DNA from: a virus
Length of the DNA: 39,512 nucleotides
Direction: 5' to 3' (one strand)
Virus record (IMG/VR): IMGVR_UViG_3300028025_003712
Location: 1 to 39,512 of that record
Positions 5,522 to 15,100 of this stretch are shown here, in pieces. The translations under genes were made by a program, and so were the position numbers. A model generated the notes under the pieces. That model did not search any database, was not told the origin of the DNA, and saw only the letters and a program-made list of their open reading frames with translations. Numbering within the stretch: the stretch's first letter is position 1; every line of letters starts with the position of its first letter.

Positions 5522-5893
5522 ATGGGAAATACAACAATGGAAAAAACGGACAGCTATATTGTGATTGGTATAGCTAAAATTTGTCATCAAGCAAATAAAG
5601 CATGGTGTGAAGAAAATAATGATTTTACTCAAAAAGATTGGATTGAAGCAGAACAATGGCAACAAGATTCAGCAATTATGGGAGTTAAATTTCGCCTACA
5701 AAATTCAGATGCTAAAGAAGATTCTCAGCACAACGCTTGGATGGAGGGGAAAATTAAAGATGGTTGGATTTATGGAGAAGTAAAGGATGCAGAAAAGAAA
5801 ACACATCCTTGCTTAGTGCCGTTTGAAGAATTGCCTCTATTTCAGCAAAAGAAAGACAAATTATTTTGTGCAATAGTTGATGCATTAAAGTAA
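5522..5893 (+). CDS. RyR domain-containing protein
   Basis: This 123-residue protein matches the RyR repeat domain (named after ryanodine receptors) found in many phage proteins. Diagnostic pieces are IAKICHQANKAWC (residues 18-30), W-x-x-A-x-x-WQ-x-x-SAIMGVKF (about 41-58), HNAWMEGKIKDGWIYGEVKDAEKKTHPCLVPFEELP (72-107, with the HPCLVP signature), and KDKLFCAIV at the end. The domain is the whole protein. The biochemical role of phage RyR domains is not established; ligand binding and modified-nucleotide sensing have been suggested for related versions. A second in-frame Met at codon 6 is an alternative start. TACATTTG at 5497-5504 is a possible promoter. The gene ends directly before the large structured RNA. 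Confidence 0.88.
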   Translation: MGNTTMEKTDSYIVIGIAKICHQANKAWCEENNDFTQKDWIEAEQWQQDSAIMGVKFRLQNSDAKEDSQHNAWMEGKIKDGWIYGEVKDAEKKTHPCLVPFEELPLFQQKKDKLFCAIVDALK

Positions 5894-5894
5894 T

Positions 5895-6430
5895 AAACAC
5901 ATTAGCCCCGTTGGCCAGGGGATCGTAAAACGCAGATCGGCCTCTTAACAATGCCCAAGACATCTGCTCTCATCGTATAGGAGATAGAGTTAGCCTTCTC
6001 GACGTCGTTCAAAAAGGCATTTATAGTCAGGTGGCGGAAAAGTATAGACGCTATTGCATGGTAACAAGAGTTTGGTACGACCTATCACATTAGTTGAAAT
6101 GTACTAAGGGGTATAGGCAACGTAAACGAATCCAAACATACAGGTTCACAATCCTGTCCTGACTACGGAGAAATAGTAATCTTCCTATATGGCATCTGGT
6201 CCAATTAAACCAGAGAACTTACTTGACTGCTGGAAAGACAGCAAATAATAATCTACTGAGGACGGATAAGCACCGTTGAAAGACTATCTTTGGCTTCCAG
6301 GACTAGCTACCCAAAGGAAGAACGAATGGCCCAAAGTGTACAGTGAGAGACCCTGCTCTACCAGTGCGCACAAAGTATCAGGTGAACAGTAAACCATGTT
6401 CAGTAAAATCTCAGACAAAGATTATTATTA
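5895..6430 (+). ncRNA. Candidate large structured RNA upstream of a tRNA
   Basis: About 535 nt contain no gene on either strand but many perfect helices. They are: CCCC 5906-5909/GGGG 5918-5921; GCAGAT 5932-5937/ATCTGC 5962-5967; GCCTT 5993-5997/AAGGC 6014-6018; an 8-bp closing helix 6024-6031/6158-6165; TCTGGT 6195-6200/ACCAGA 6209-6214; TGCTG 6228-6232/CAGCA 6239-6243; ACGG 6262-6265/CCGT 6273-6276; a pseudoknot at 6288-6320; and TGAACA 6383-6388/TGTTCA 6397-6402. The region is less AT-rich than other intergenic DNA here. Size, ornate structure and position next to a phage tRNA resemble GOLLD and ROOL RNAs, but I cannot confirm the family. Strand is inferred from neighbouring genes. Boundaries are approximate. 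Confidence 0.6.
6024..6165 (+). ncRNA. tRNA-like fold with a long insertion inside the structured RNA
   Basis: TAGTCAGG 6024-6031 pairs perfectly with CCTGACTA 6158-6165 as an acceptor-like stem. A T-arm-like hairpin, ACAGG 6140-6144/CCTGT 6153-6157, abuts it; its loop starts TTCA but has 8 nt instead of 7. A D-arm-like hairpin, GCG 6034-6036/CGC 6049-6051, has a Leu-tRNA-like flank (GGTGGCGGAA). A short anticodon-like arm follows (6052-6056/6065-6069, one mismatch). In place of a variable loop is a 70-nt branched helix: GTTTGG 6070-6075/CCAAAC 6132-6137, TACG 6076-6079/CGTA 6121-6124, CCTAT 6081-6085/ATAGG 6113-6117. CGG follows instead of CCA, so it is not a normal tRNA. Confidence 0.55.
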
Positions 6431-6431
6431 C

Positions 6432-6508
6432 GGATCCTTAGCTCAGTTGGTTAGAGCAGCGCACTCATAATGCGAAGGTCACAGGTTCAAGTCCTGTAGG
6501 ATCCACCA
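6432..6508 (+). tRNA. tRNA with CAT anticodon (Ile2 or Met)
   Basis: A complete 77-nt cloverleaf. The acceptor stem is GGATCCT 6432-6438 with AGGATCC 6498-6504; the D-arm is GCTC/GAGC; the anticodon loop CTCATAA has CAT at 6466-6468; the T-arm is ACAGG/CCTGT with loop TTCAAGT. The 3' CCA is encoded (6506-6508). The loop CTCATAA and the body are like bacterial tRNA-Ile2, whose C34 becomes lysidine, but elongator tRNA-Met shares the same loop. I cannot choose between them from sequence alone. The anticodon stem has a G·A at its outer pair. The gene ends 1 nt before the next coding start. Confidence 0.95.
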
Positions 6509-6509
6509 G

Positions 6510-6884
6510 ATGAATATAAGAATAAGAATAGATAATATTGAATGTCGCTTAACGGGTTCACAGTATGAGATTGTTAAGTGGCTTCCTAATACGTACTATG
6601 GTTCCGAGGCCCGACTAGAAGCGGAAGGGTACGAAAGAATAGATGCTACTTATAGTGGATTTGCATACAGAAAGGGCAACCACACAATCAATGGTTCTTG
6701 CTTTCAAAATGAAGAGAGTTGTTATGTAATTGCTCTTGTTGATGATGACTCAGAAGAGGGTTTAGAAATAAGACCGATTGGACCCAGGCTGCTTAATTTG
6801 AGCAAAGAGGAAAGGGATATCTTTTTTGACATCTATAAATACATAAACGACAAGGCTTTGAATGACAAGGGAATTACTGAATAG
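6510..6884 (+). CDS. Phage protein of unknown function
   Basis: A 124-residue acidic protein whose ATG is 1 nt after the tRNA CCA end, so tRNA processing would release a leaderless mRNA. The N-terminal half is beta-rich (alternating INIRIRID-like strands, aromatic YYGSEARLEAEGYERI), followed by an acidic turn (VDDDSEEG near residue 80) and a C-terminal helix. No known motif, signal peptide or membrane segment is visible. The function is unknown. The tight junction to the tRNA implies a shared transcript with the structured RNA upstream. Confidence 0.65.
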   Translation: MNIRIRIDNIECRLTGSQYEIVKWLPNTYYGSEARLEAEGYERIDATYSGFAYRKGNHTINGSCFQNEESCYVIALVDDDSEEGLEIRPIGPRLLNLSKEERDIFFDIYKYINDKALNDKGITE

Positions 6885-7877: not shown

Positions 7878-8060
7878 ATGAGAGAAAACAAACATACGGA
7901 CTACGTAAACGAGGAAATAGATCAGTTGAACAATTCAATTACTGAATTATACGAGTCCATGATGGATATTGAGTACGACGAGGTCGTGTCAATATGCAGC
8001 AGATTAATGCAACAATTAAAAGAAATCCAATCCAATTATACAAATGAGACCTTATTATGA
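7878..8060 (+). CDS. Small helical acidic protein of unknown function
   Basis: A 60-residue acidic protein predicted to be two helices (EEIDQLNNSITELYESM, then VVSICSRLMQQLKEIQ). The ATG follows directly on the terminator T-tract, so its transcription must come through that terminator or from a start inside it. It overlaps the metallophosphoesterase gene by 17 nt, so the two are probably translationally coupled and it may be an accessory factor. No domain is recognised. Confidence 0.6.
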   Translation: MRENKHTDYVNEEIDQLNNSITELYESMMDIEYDEVVSICSRLMQQLKEIQSNYTNETLL

Positions 8061-12100: not shown

Positions 12101-15100
12101 CTCTTTATCTTTTTAATGTTCTCATTCGCCTTTCTTACCTTCTCAGAGTAGTCAGCGTCATTGAACACCTTGGTCATGTAGTCAACAAAACCATCAACAA
12201 CTGATGGGTTGCTTAGATTGACAGAGCCAATTCTTTTAATAATTGTTGCAGCTTGCTTTGTGGTGATCTTGCCAGACTTCGCAAGTTCAGACACCTCTAA
12301 TGATAATGCCTTTCTTAGGTCATTAACTTCTTTAGCTGCTGCCTTAGCTGCTTTGCCCTCTAACTTTATTTGTTCTTTAAGTAGCGTAGATTCTTTTGCC
12401 GTAATGTTGGCAATATCTTTTATAGCTCCAAGTATTCTGCCTACAGATACGTTTCTCTTTTCTTTAAGACCCATAGCTGATCTAAGCTCTCTTACGAGCG
12501 CTTCTCTTTCTGAGTCGTCAGCGTCTTGGTAGTATTTGCTTTTCTGTAAATAGTTTAATGCATTTTCGTATGCTTTTTCCTTTGTTGCGCCCCTGTTTGT
12601 AGACTTTTCAATGATGCCGGCAACTTCTTTTTGAAGTCTAGCTTTTTGTGGCTTAGACGATAACTTATAGATAGGTCCAAACTTGCCAAATTTCATCGCA
12701 TTCTCCAATGGTATCTTTCCAGATACGCCTGAACCCTCGTAAGAGTAAACGCCATTGTCGTCAACATCGGTCAATACAACTTCTCTACCCATGAAGAATA
12801 TCTTATCTCCTACGGATATTTTATTGTCCTCAATTTGCTTTAAAGGAATTACCTCCGCCTCTGGCTTAAGAGTCTTTTTTGTTTGAGCTCTAAAGTCATA
12901 GTCATTTCTCCATTTAGCAATGACCATATCAAATCCTTTCTCTGTAGCTACCTTGGTGATCCAAGCAACTTGATAGTTAGGATTAAATGCATAATTAACT
13001 CTCTTGTTGTTATTTCTATTCATGTGGTCCAAGAATTGTTCCTTAGCCTCATCGTAGAAATTCAAAACATCTTTATTCATGTAGTAGACCTTAGATGGGT
13101 CAACAACTACAGTGTTAGGGATATTTCCAACGTGTGATTCTTTCTGCCCGATCTGAGTGTAGTACATCGCAAGACCACCCACGCTTGATAACGCCTGTTG
13201 TTCTTCCTTGCTTGTAATAAGACTACCGGAGCCAGTTGAAGGCCTAACTTCATCTATCTCTTTCCAAGAATAGTGATTGAATACTATATTGCCATCCTTG
13301 TCGGTGGTTAGCTTTTCAAATACTTCTTTTGGTATATATGGATGAGCCTTCTGGGCTTTTGTTGTCTTGCCACTCGATTTACCTTCTCCGCCTTTAAAGT
13401 ACCCACTGATATCCTCGCCTCTAGACAATGAGTCAGAGATGCTCGTCATAAAGTCCAAGATATTCTCAGGTGTGGCGTCTTCTAGAAACACTTCTTGACC
13501 CGTGATTGCTTTGGTAAACTTATTGATGATATCTTTTAATTGATTTAATAAGTTCTTTTGATTTGCGTTCATCTTAGATGGGTTGATTCTGGCAGACGCC
13601 AACATTCCTCCAAACTGAACCAACCACTCACTAGCCATTGTGTCCGACTCAATGTACTCAGGGTTGATAGCAAACGCGTCTAGTTCATCAGCAATGTCTT
13701 CGTAGCCATTGTCCCTAAGCGCCTTGTCGATTGACTTTCTGAAGCTATCAAATAGAGTCTCGTTCTCTCCGAACGCTTTAGACAGGATACCGTGCCAGAT
13801 CTCATGAGGCATTGTTGTCTCGTCTGATAACTCTTGATTCACAAGAACCTCAACGATCTTCCCTTTATCAAAAATAGCTCTGGCAGCATCATCCTCCGCA
13901 AAGTTTTCGGCAAACTCTTGACCATACTTCTTAGCCACGTAGTCCTTCATTTCTTTTGTGTTCTTAAATTCAGATACGCTAAGATCAGGGAATACTTTAG
14001 CTATTGCTTTTTTAATGTTTTTTCCGAGTTTAGTTTTAGTGGTTGCCGGTGCCCCTTGTTCTTTGGCCACTGTGGCTTCTTTGTTTTTTCTTGCTTGATC
14101 AACAAAGGAGTTTCTGTATGCCATTGCTTCATCGTAGTCATTAAATGTTTTTTCCTCAATGTTCAACTTATTATCCGGATCGTAAACCATGGCTACGACA
14201 TCAGGTGTTCCGTGTTTTTCTTTATTCCAGCCATCGGGTGCGTACTCCTCGTTGAAAGGGAGTCTAGATACCACTCTAAATCCTGCTTTTTTGTATATAG
14301 GACTTAGGTAATTATCAAAGTTATCAAGCTTAATCCCTCCGGCATCTACCGCTTTATTCAATAATCTTTGAGCCACGCCTTTTGCTTTAGATGTAGCTTT
14401 TTTGAATAACCCCTTTATGTCTCCGTCTTTGGACACTAAAGCGCCACCATCTGTATCAGATATAACAGTTCCGTCCTTGGCTGCTTCTTCGGATACGGGG
14501 TCTACTGACCAATATTGCTCTGGGTCTGAATTCTTAGTTTCCTGCAAATCAGCAACATATGATTCTGGTGTTACTTTTTCTTCTTGACCTTGTTCGGTAG
14601 TGCCTTGAGGTTCTGATTCGGGAACTCTTTGCTCCACTTTTTCGCTAGTTCCGGTTTCTGGCTGTACAGGTACTTTGCCTGAGCCTTGCTCTTGAATGGC
14701 ATTTGCTTTATTAATTATATCTTGTCTTCTTTGTACTAATTCGTCATATCTGGCATTCAATGGGGCCATTACAGATTTCTTTTCAGCATCTGTCAAGTTT
14801 TTGTCTCCCTTGATTACTAGGAATTGACTTTTTACTTTTTGTATTTCTTCATAATTAGCAACACCTTCTCTTATTTCTTCAGGGGTTAATTTACTAATTA
14901 CATCAATACCACCATTGATGATGGCTTCGTTTTCTTTTTTTGTTTTATTTATAGATTCATTAATGATATCTTTAGATTCTTGGCTTGTTACCTTTTCTAA
15001 TGATTCTGTTAACTGCTTGATTCTATTATTATTGGCTCTTATTATTCCGTCTGGATCCTGAATAAATGGAGATATAATTTTAGATGCAATTATAGGGGAT

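Follow-up and report, generated by a model that had tools for sequence, protein, structure and literature searches.

The stretch at positions 5895-6431 of the window (the whole 39,512-nt DNA that was analysed, IMG/VR virus record IMGVR_UViG_3300028025_003712) holds no plausible gene between the stop codon at 5893 and the tRNA at its end (Table 1), in agreement with a preliminary description made from the sequence alone, which had reported about 535 nt without a gene. The gene just upstream (5522-5893) encodes a small RyR-domain protein (Pfam PF02026), and a similar gene likewise lies ahead of the first module of the stretch, e1, in the syntenic contig L272. The GC content of the stretch is 0.429 compared with 0.14-0.35 for the remaining intergenic stretches of the window, which confirms the lower AT content also described there. 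At gathering score, the sole Rfam match within 5895-6508 is the tRNA itself. The models that the preliminary description had recommended (GOLLD, ROOL, HEARO, tmRNA and group I intron) were run and gave no match in the window at gathering score and none up to E 10 within 5800-6600, and ARAGORN gives no tmRNA in the window either. A sensitive Rfam search returned two sub-cut-off matches, one to freshwater-1 RNA (RF02979) at 6342-6408 and a partial one at 5939-5958 to abiF RNA (RF03085), the RNA that acts as antitoxin to the abortive-infection toxins AbiF/Abi_2.

The helices pointed out earlier are at chance level when taken alone. Folding of the whole stretch gives z = -1.27, a value equalled by 13 of 100 dinucleotide shuffles, so helix counts prove nothing. 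The evidence for structure comes from relatives, as compensatory changes in the freshwater-1 part and in e1 and as conserved frames with swappable cores. The preliminary description had held that homologues without covarying pairs would speak against its reading; strong covariation was found. By comparison with these relatives, the stretch is a structured non-coding RNA region of four modules, each of which turns up independently in other phages, and this anatomy of modules and structure is well supported.

Table 1. Features of the RNA-bearing stretch, with positions in the window
Feature	Position	Strand	Evidence
e1, AbiF-antitoxin-like RNA on conserved scaffold	5903-6018	+	48 other phage contigs, alignment A1, abiF model matches
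abiF-like hairpin of e1: outer stem GCAGAT/ATCTGC, inner stem GGC/GCC, 11-nt loop CTCTTAACAAT	5932-5967	+	RF03085 alignment
tRNA-Leu-like framed RNA	6025-6165	+	arms, A73, comparison with relatives, fold z -2.16
Acceptor stem of frame	6025-6031/6158-6164		
D stem of frame	6034-6036/6049-6051		
Exchangeable core, replacing anticodon and variable arms	6052-6139	+	unrelated in syntenic L272
T arm of frame, 8-nt loop	6140-6157		
A73 of frame	6165		
e3, small module with hairpin TGCT-GGAAAGAC-AGCA at its end	6167-6243	+	relatives
Extended freshwater-1 RNA, closing stem AATAATAATC/GATTATTATT	6244-6429	+	RF02979 match, 14-sequence covariation
tRNA, anticodon CAT, end of island	6432-6508	+	ARAGORN and Rfam

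The scaffold of e1 runs from a 5' hairpin through GATCGTAAAAC, the abiF-like hairpin and an ATCGTA hairpin to a 3' GCCTT/AAGGC stem. Relatives lie in L142, L073, L108, L126 and L028, and a pattern search gave 48 other phage contigs with e1; L142 is the nearest phage by RNR, and its e1 is 93% identical. Folding of e1 alone gives z = +0.95, and 10 of the 20 pairs in alignment A1 are altered on both sides. The inner stem of the abiF-like hairpin changes across relatives (A:T, G:C, T:A) around an unchanged loop. When six phage records were checked with the abiF model (RF03085), the top match fell within e1 in each. The e1 copies of L126 and L142 score 28 and 27 bits with all 37 model positions aligned, the match in the window is partial (19.9 bits, E 0.93, model positions 8-27), and all phage e1 scores are under the Rfam cut-off of 37 (best 28). 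As to abiF membership, the two-stem hairpin and the conserved 11-nt loop are present; a score at cut-off and an adjoining Abi_2 gene are absent. No Abi_2 gene was found in any of 42 e1-bearing phage records (6 + 36; many are fragments, several are 60-270 kb), and the same search detected Abi_2 in 7/7 host genomes with abiF RNA. One mark of a ToxI/Racr-type RNA mimic, a solitary copy of a defence RNA without the effector gene, is found in e1. The element 3' of the 49 e1 copies is a tRNA-like D arm at most 40 nt away in 21, the GTTGT..GAGAAAGGA family in 7, the ACCGTAAGAACTTCTGCG element in 4, a tRNA in 2, e3-like hairpins in 2 and other sequence in 13; copies in L073, L108, L233 and L250 stand ahead of genes without a tRNA frame. 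On the minus strand of L385 (around 5118) the scaffold is retained, but all that is left of the abiF loop is a simple hairpin, ACGGA-TTAAG-TCCGT.

Among 395 Bacteroidia-class genomes, 7 have abiF RNA above the cut-off, and in the loci inspected most of these host RNAs lie directly upstream of an Abi_2-type ORF (L387-L392, L394). Their loop, AAGCCTCTTAACAATGCTCAAAT, is nearly identical to that of phage e1, and a second host form, TGCCTCT..GCACACT, has phage counterparts in L237, L240, L028 and L274. A model made from phage e1 only, when run on the same 395 genomes, gave two matches (E-values from such home-made models being rough), the first of which is exactly the host abiF RNA of G326; the second, in G019, lies inside an ORF and was rejected as chance. 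The genomes of three loci with tRNA frames contained no abiF RNA.

Six phage loci have the same e1 scaffold with GCATACCGTAAGATCTGC or a near variant replacing the abiF loop (the type-B hairpin). The exact 18-mer GCATACCGTAAGATCTGC occurs in 4 of the 395 Bacteroidia genomes, always directly upstream of an Abi_2-type ORF, which is complete in L406, L409 and L410 and truncated in L405; L410 has abiF and type-B hairpins within one RNA. Because a degenerate type-B pattern gave 9 matches compared with 5 for its reversed control, only exact GCATACCGTAAGATCTGC matches were taken as evidence. At the site after RNR, type A is present in L142 and type B in L146, each followed by a different tRNA frame, and no island is found at this site in L143, L144, L145, L147 or L148. 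The tRNA frames at about 7990-8030 of L142 and 8170-8215 of L146 have other acceptor stems and an extra D-loop hairpin. Neither e1 nor e1-B has relatives among isolate phages, and no e1 was found in plasmids. The hairpin AGCATACCGTAAGATCTGCT near position 1504 of L406, L409 and L410, immediately ahead of the Abi_2-type genes, is a candidate second Abi_2 antitoxin motif, one that the abiF model does not reach over its cut-off.

These comparisons suggest that e1 is likely a mimic of the AbiF antitoxin. The top abiF matches fall in e1, host abiF RNAs with nearly the same loop stand before Abi_2, both host sub-forms are mirrored in phages, a model of e1 only retrieves a host abiF RNA, the exact type-B hairpin always precedes Abi_2 (truncated once), and no Abi_2 was found in the 42 phage records. 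Two points count against mimicry: the phage scores are sub-cut-off (28 vs 37), with a partial match of 19.9 bits in the window, and each e1 has one abiF hairpin compared with two in the studied C. difficile RNA. An alternative is that these are structural or regulatory phage RNAs, serving array processing or phage gene regulation, whose likeness to abiF reflects shared ancestry without an anti-defence function. This would fit the e1 copies that precede genes without a tRNA frame and the loss of the abiF loop from the L385 scaffold. However, the neighbours of e1 vary on both sides, and two distinct Abi_2-linked hairpins are swapped on one scaffold, as an active role of the hairpin would predict, so this alternative is considered unlikely. 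It is quite improbable that the phages have a toxin-antitoxin system of their own in which e1 serves as antitoxin and the toxin lies elsewhere or has been lost. Prophages of C. difficile do have abiF plus its RNA (PMC12373285), but the Abi_2 search that succeeded in every host was negative in every e1-bearing record, including those of 60-270 kb.

The second module bears out the tRNA-like fold noticed in the preliminary description. The acceptor, D and T arms and A73 are present, the anticodon arm is absent at the expected place, and the core is 88 nt long; the D and T loops depart from those of a normal tRNA, and relatives reach 32-42 bits against the tRNA model. When the window was compared with L272, the two matched at 5570-6052 (82%) and 6138-6166 (100%) with nothing between; on this alignment they differ in the frame core alone, with both flanks kept, and L272 has the same unusual D loop and 8-nt T loop. 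Several tRNA frames, each with a different core, are present in L004. Pattern scans of IMG/VR for such frames returned at least 120 stretches in each of two scans, and the fetched loci contained 913 tRNA frames, a sample picked by pattern, among which the cores of 267 unique long frames (at least 98 nt) form 192 clusters, including 149 singletons. Of the long frames, 1.1% show a 5-bp anticodon stem (shuffles 2.4%), as do 3.1% of short AGTCAGG frames and 70.7% of short frames whose acceptor is a different one; the shuffle level is 2-3%. In loci retrieved by other means than the frame pattern, 15 of 21 long frames still have the acceptor AGTCAGG. Frames whose 5' D strand departs from GCG carry the matching complement in 16 of 28 cases (permuted mean 6.8, maximum 14 in 2000). 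Both the missing anticodon arm and this D-stem complementarity speak for the framed reading. Across 192 clusters, the cores have a small folding advantage over shuffles (mean z -0.73, sem 0.08).

When one tRNA-framed core was searched against isolate phages only the T arms of tRNAs matched, and the GTTGT-frame family had no relatives there. H53 was rejected as a framed RNA, being an ordinary tRNA-Leu instead. A second framed family, GTGTTGTtCCCTTGAGAAAGGA..core..ACAACACAGAGG, has constant closing ends and a variable middle and follows e1 in 7 loci; it is seen in L248, L253, L259, L240 and L004 (about 862-965 and 5866-5942). In the cultured strain Chitinophaga eiseniae DSM 22224 (NZ_FUWZ01000003), a phage-like region includes about 1.4 kb that is nearly or wholly free of genes (L138:1850-3220), which holds a tRNA-framed RNA (acceptor GATCAGG) and at least one further tRNA-like element. 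At about 303-411 of L412, Leuconostoc phage phiLM33_01 (PV780767.1), a tRNA-Leu-like frame that is missing from the annotation (TGACAGG/CCTGTCA) encloses a non-anticodon core. As this is a cultured phage of a Gram-positive host, the framed kind may extend beyond Bacteroidota phages.

The frames could also be thought of as a decaying tRNA array of broken tRNA-Leu genes and leftover spacer, since they resemble tRNA-Leu, such decay is known for phage tRNA arrays and the window copy has an 8-nt T loop. This is highly improbable: unrelated cores sit inside frames that stay intact, the two sides of the D stem change in concert, the cores form recurring families and fold slightly better than shuffles, the freshwater-1 part covaries, and the odd loops are conserved in L272. 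Just as little probability is given to tRNA-Leu genes with small anticodon-loop introns, in which the core would be spliced out. The intron mode of ARAGORN can produce a tRNA with a 54-nt intron at this place, but it yields intron-containing tRNAs everywhere, coding sequence included, and was set aside as uninformative. The anticodon stem of the long frames stays below the shuffle frequency, enrichment of a stem immediately beneath the D arm is confined to a minority, this stem enclosing 9-87 nt, and group I or group II introns would not fit into cores of this size, with no such Rfam match.

A relative of e3 follows a different tRNA frame in L021/L057, and the e3 loop is found on other stems in L267, L272 and L273. 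The freshwater-1 match in the window (48.9 bits, E 5e-10) is under the family cut-off of 72, and eight relatives score 72.5-87.7 bits. A first, strict pattern gave no matches. With a conserved-core pattern, ten real relatives were found in IMG/VR, all ten in loci with tRNA genes, and the RNA was found between ordinary tRNAs in relatives. In the pattern searches as a whole, matches in L002 and L012 (coding) and in L244, L256 and L265 were discarded as chance. Homology extends about 100 nt upstream of the Rfam model. In alignment A2 of 14 sequences, with 35 pairs, 97.5% of cells pair compared with 81.2 when shuffled, 24 pairs are altered on both sides compared with 12.4, and the covariation score is 0.511 compared with 0.203; 0/500 shuffles reach the observed values, and each slid control is far lower. 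By its shared core and covarying structure, the fourth module is a distant, longer member of the freshwater-1 family. In L010 (about 7900-8020) the copy lacks the greater part of the 5' domain, which shows that the Rfam core can occur by itself. The freshwater-1 part has no relatives in isolate phages, and its model gave one marginal match (E 0.0098) and no reliable counterpart in the 395 Bacteroidia genomes. One contig of 14.7 kb, L004, has GOLLD, tmRNA, freshwater-1 RNA and several tRNA-framed RNAs (L004:11836-12243 and 13561-13958).

The preliminary description had proposed a single large ornate RNA spanning about 535 nt, either a new class or a divergent member of GOLLD or ROOL, and this is the least probable reading: the length, the adjoining tRNA, the many helices, the lack of a gene and a freshwater-1 relative on one contig with GOLLD favour it, but neither Rfam model matches, the four parts occur apart and in other orders and combinations, and the whole fold does not exceed shuffles. 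What stands of that proposal is a structured, largely undescribed phage RNA adjoining a tRNA, in the form of four separate elements.

The stretch is probably a phage anti-defence RNA island, in which e1 would be an AbiF-antitoxin mimic and tRNA frames would carry exchangeable, possibly decoy, cores. Exchange of modules is indicated by the swap of types A and B after RNR (L142, L146) and by the core-only difference from L272. In this model, the island would be transcribed through the array, and trimming and stabilisation of the framed RNA would fall to host RNase P, RNase Z and CCA addition; the 5' cut at the tRNA frame would free the 3' end of e1 and so release it. Made during infection, e1 would bind the host Abi_2 toxin and keep it inactive once the host antitoxin is depleted. 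The cores, which vary among phages, are probably ligands of other host proteins, perhaps other toxins or nucleases, and may act as decoys, and the freshwater-1 RNA and e3 would be further island modules. Such roles of the cores, e3 and the freshwater-1 RNA are suggested by association only. More tentatively, and with some doubt, the tRNA-like frames may be a natural display scaffold in which each core is a decoy or antitoxin for a different defence protein, forming beside the e1 mimics an arsenal exchanged by cassettes.

Among the closest known systems is abiF RNA, with which e1 shares the outer stem, the 3-bp inner stem, the 11-nt loop CUCUYAACRAU and the following CAAA. In C. difficile, the abiF RNA (RCd22) tightly binds and neutralises its toxin, also in trans, and the Abi_2 family has been linked to ancestral Cas13 proteins (PMC12373285). 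However, host copies lie directly before Abi_2, whereas phage e1 is without Abi_2, sits on a longer scaffold in tRNA arrays, scores below the cut-off and has a single hairpin. The pseudo-ToxI of phage PhiTE is a phage RNA mimic of ToxI (PMC3475682), and Racr are phage RNA anti-CRISPRs that mimic CRISPR repeats (PMC10651486). By analogy, e1 would be a solitary phage copy of a host RNA whose kind binds a defence protein; it differs in its putative target, Abi_2, and in its dedicated scaffold with exchangeable hairpins. The last module shares with freshwater-1 RNA (RF02979) the core GACCCTGCTCT..CAGG, both hairpins and the tRNA-array setting of the relatives, but at about 185 nt the window RNA is longer, having in addition a covarying 5' domain and a closing stem. 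The frames, with acceptor stem, D arm, T arm and A73, resemble tRNA-Leu, tmRNA and the engineered tRNA scaffold, in which other RNA stands where the anticodon arm was. The differences are the lack of an anticodon, the natural origin and the very variable cores, and no tmRNA match exists in the window. The tRNA-array setting of the window RNAs is common to GOLLD and ROOL (PMC12286853), though the window RNAs are much smaller and separate and show no sequence or model match to them. Ordinary phage tRNAs evade defence (PMC11555353), and the tRNA-array RNAs of the window may likewise counter host defence, although the framed RNAs have no anticodons. In the open PMC literature, neither phage AbiF-antitoxin mimics nor such tRNA-framed RNAs were found described, which does not in itself prove novelty.

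The freshwater-1 RNA gains from these data a fuller structure and a phage tRNA-array context. If the anti-defence reading is true, phages hold ready-made RNA antidotes to Abi_2 toxins inside tRNA arrays that are blank in annotations. The tRNA-framed RNAs would be a large unannotated class, a naturally occurring equivalent of the tRNA scaffold used in the laboratory, and a pointer to new defence targets.
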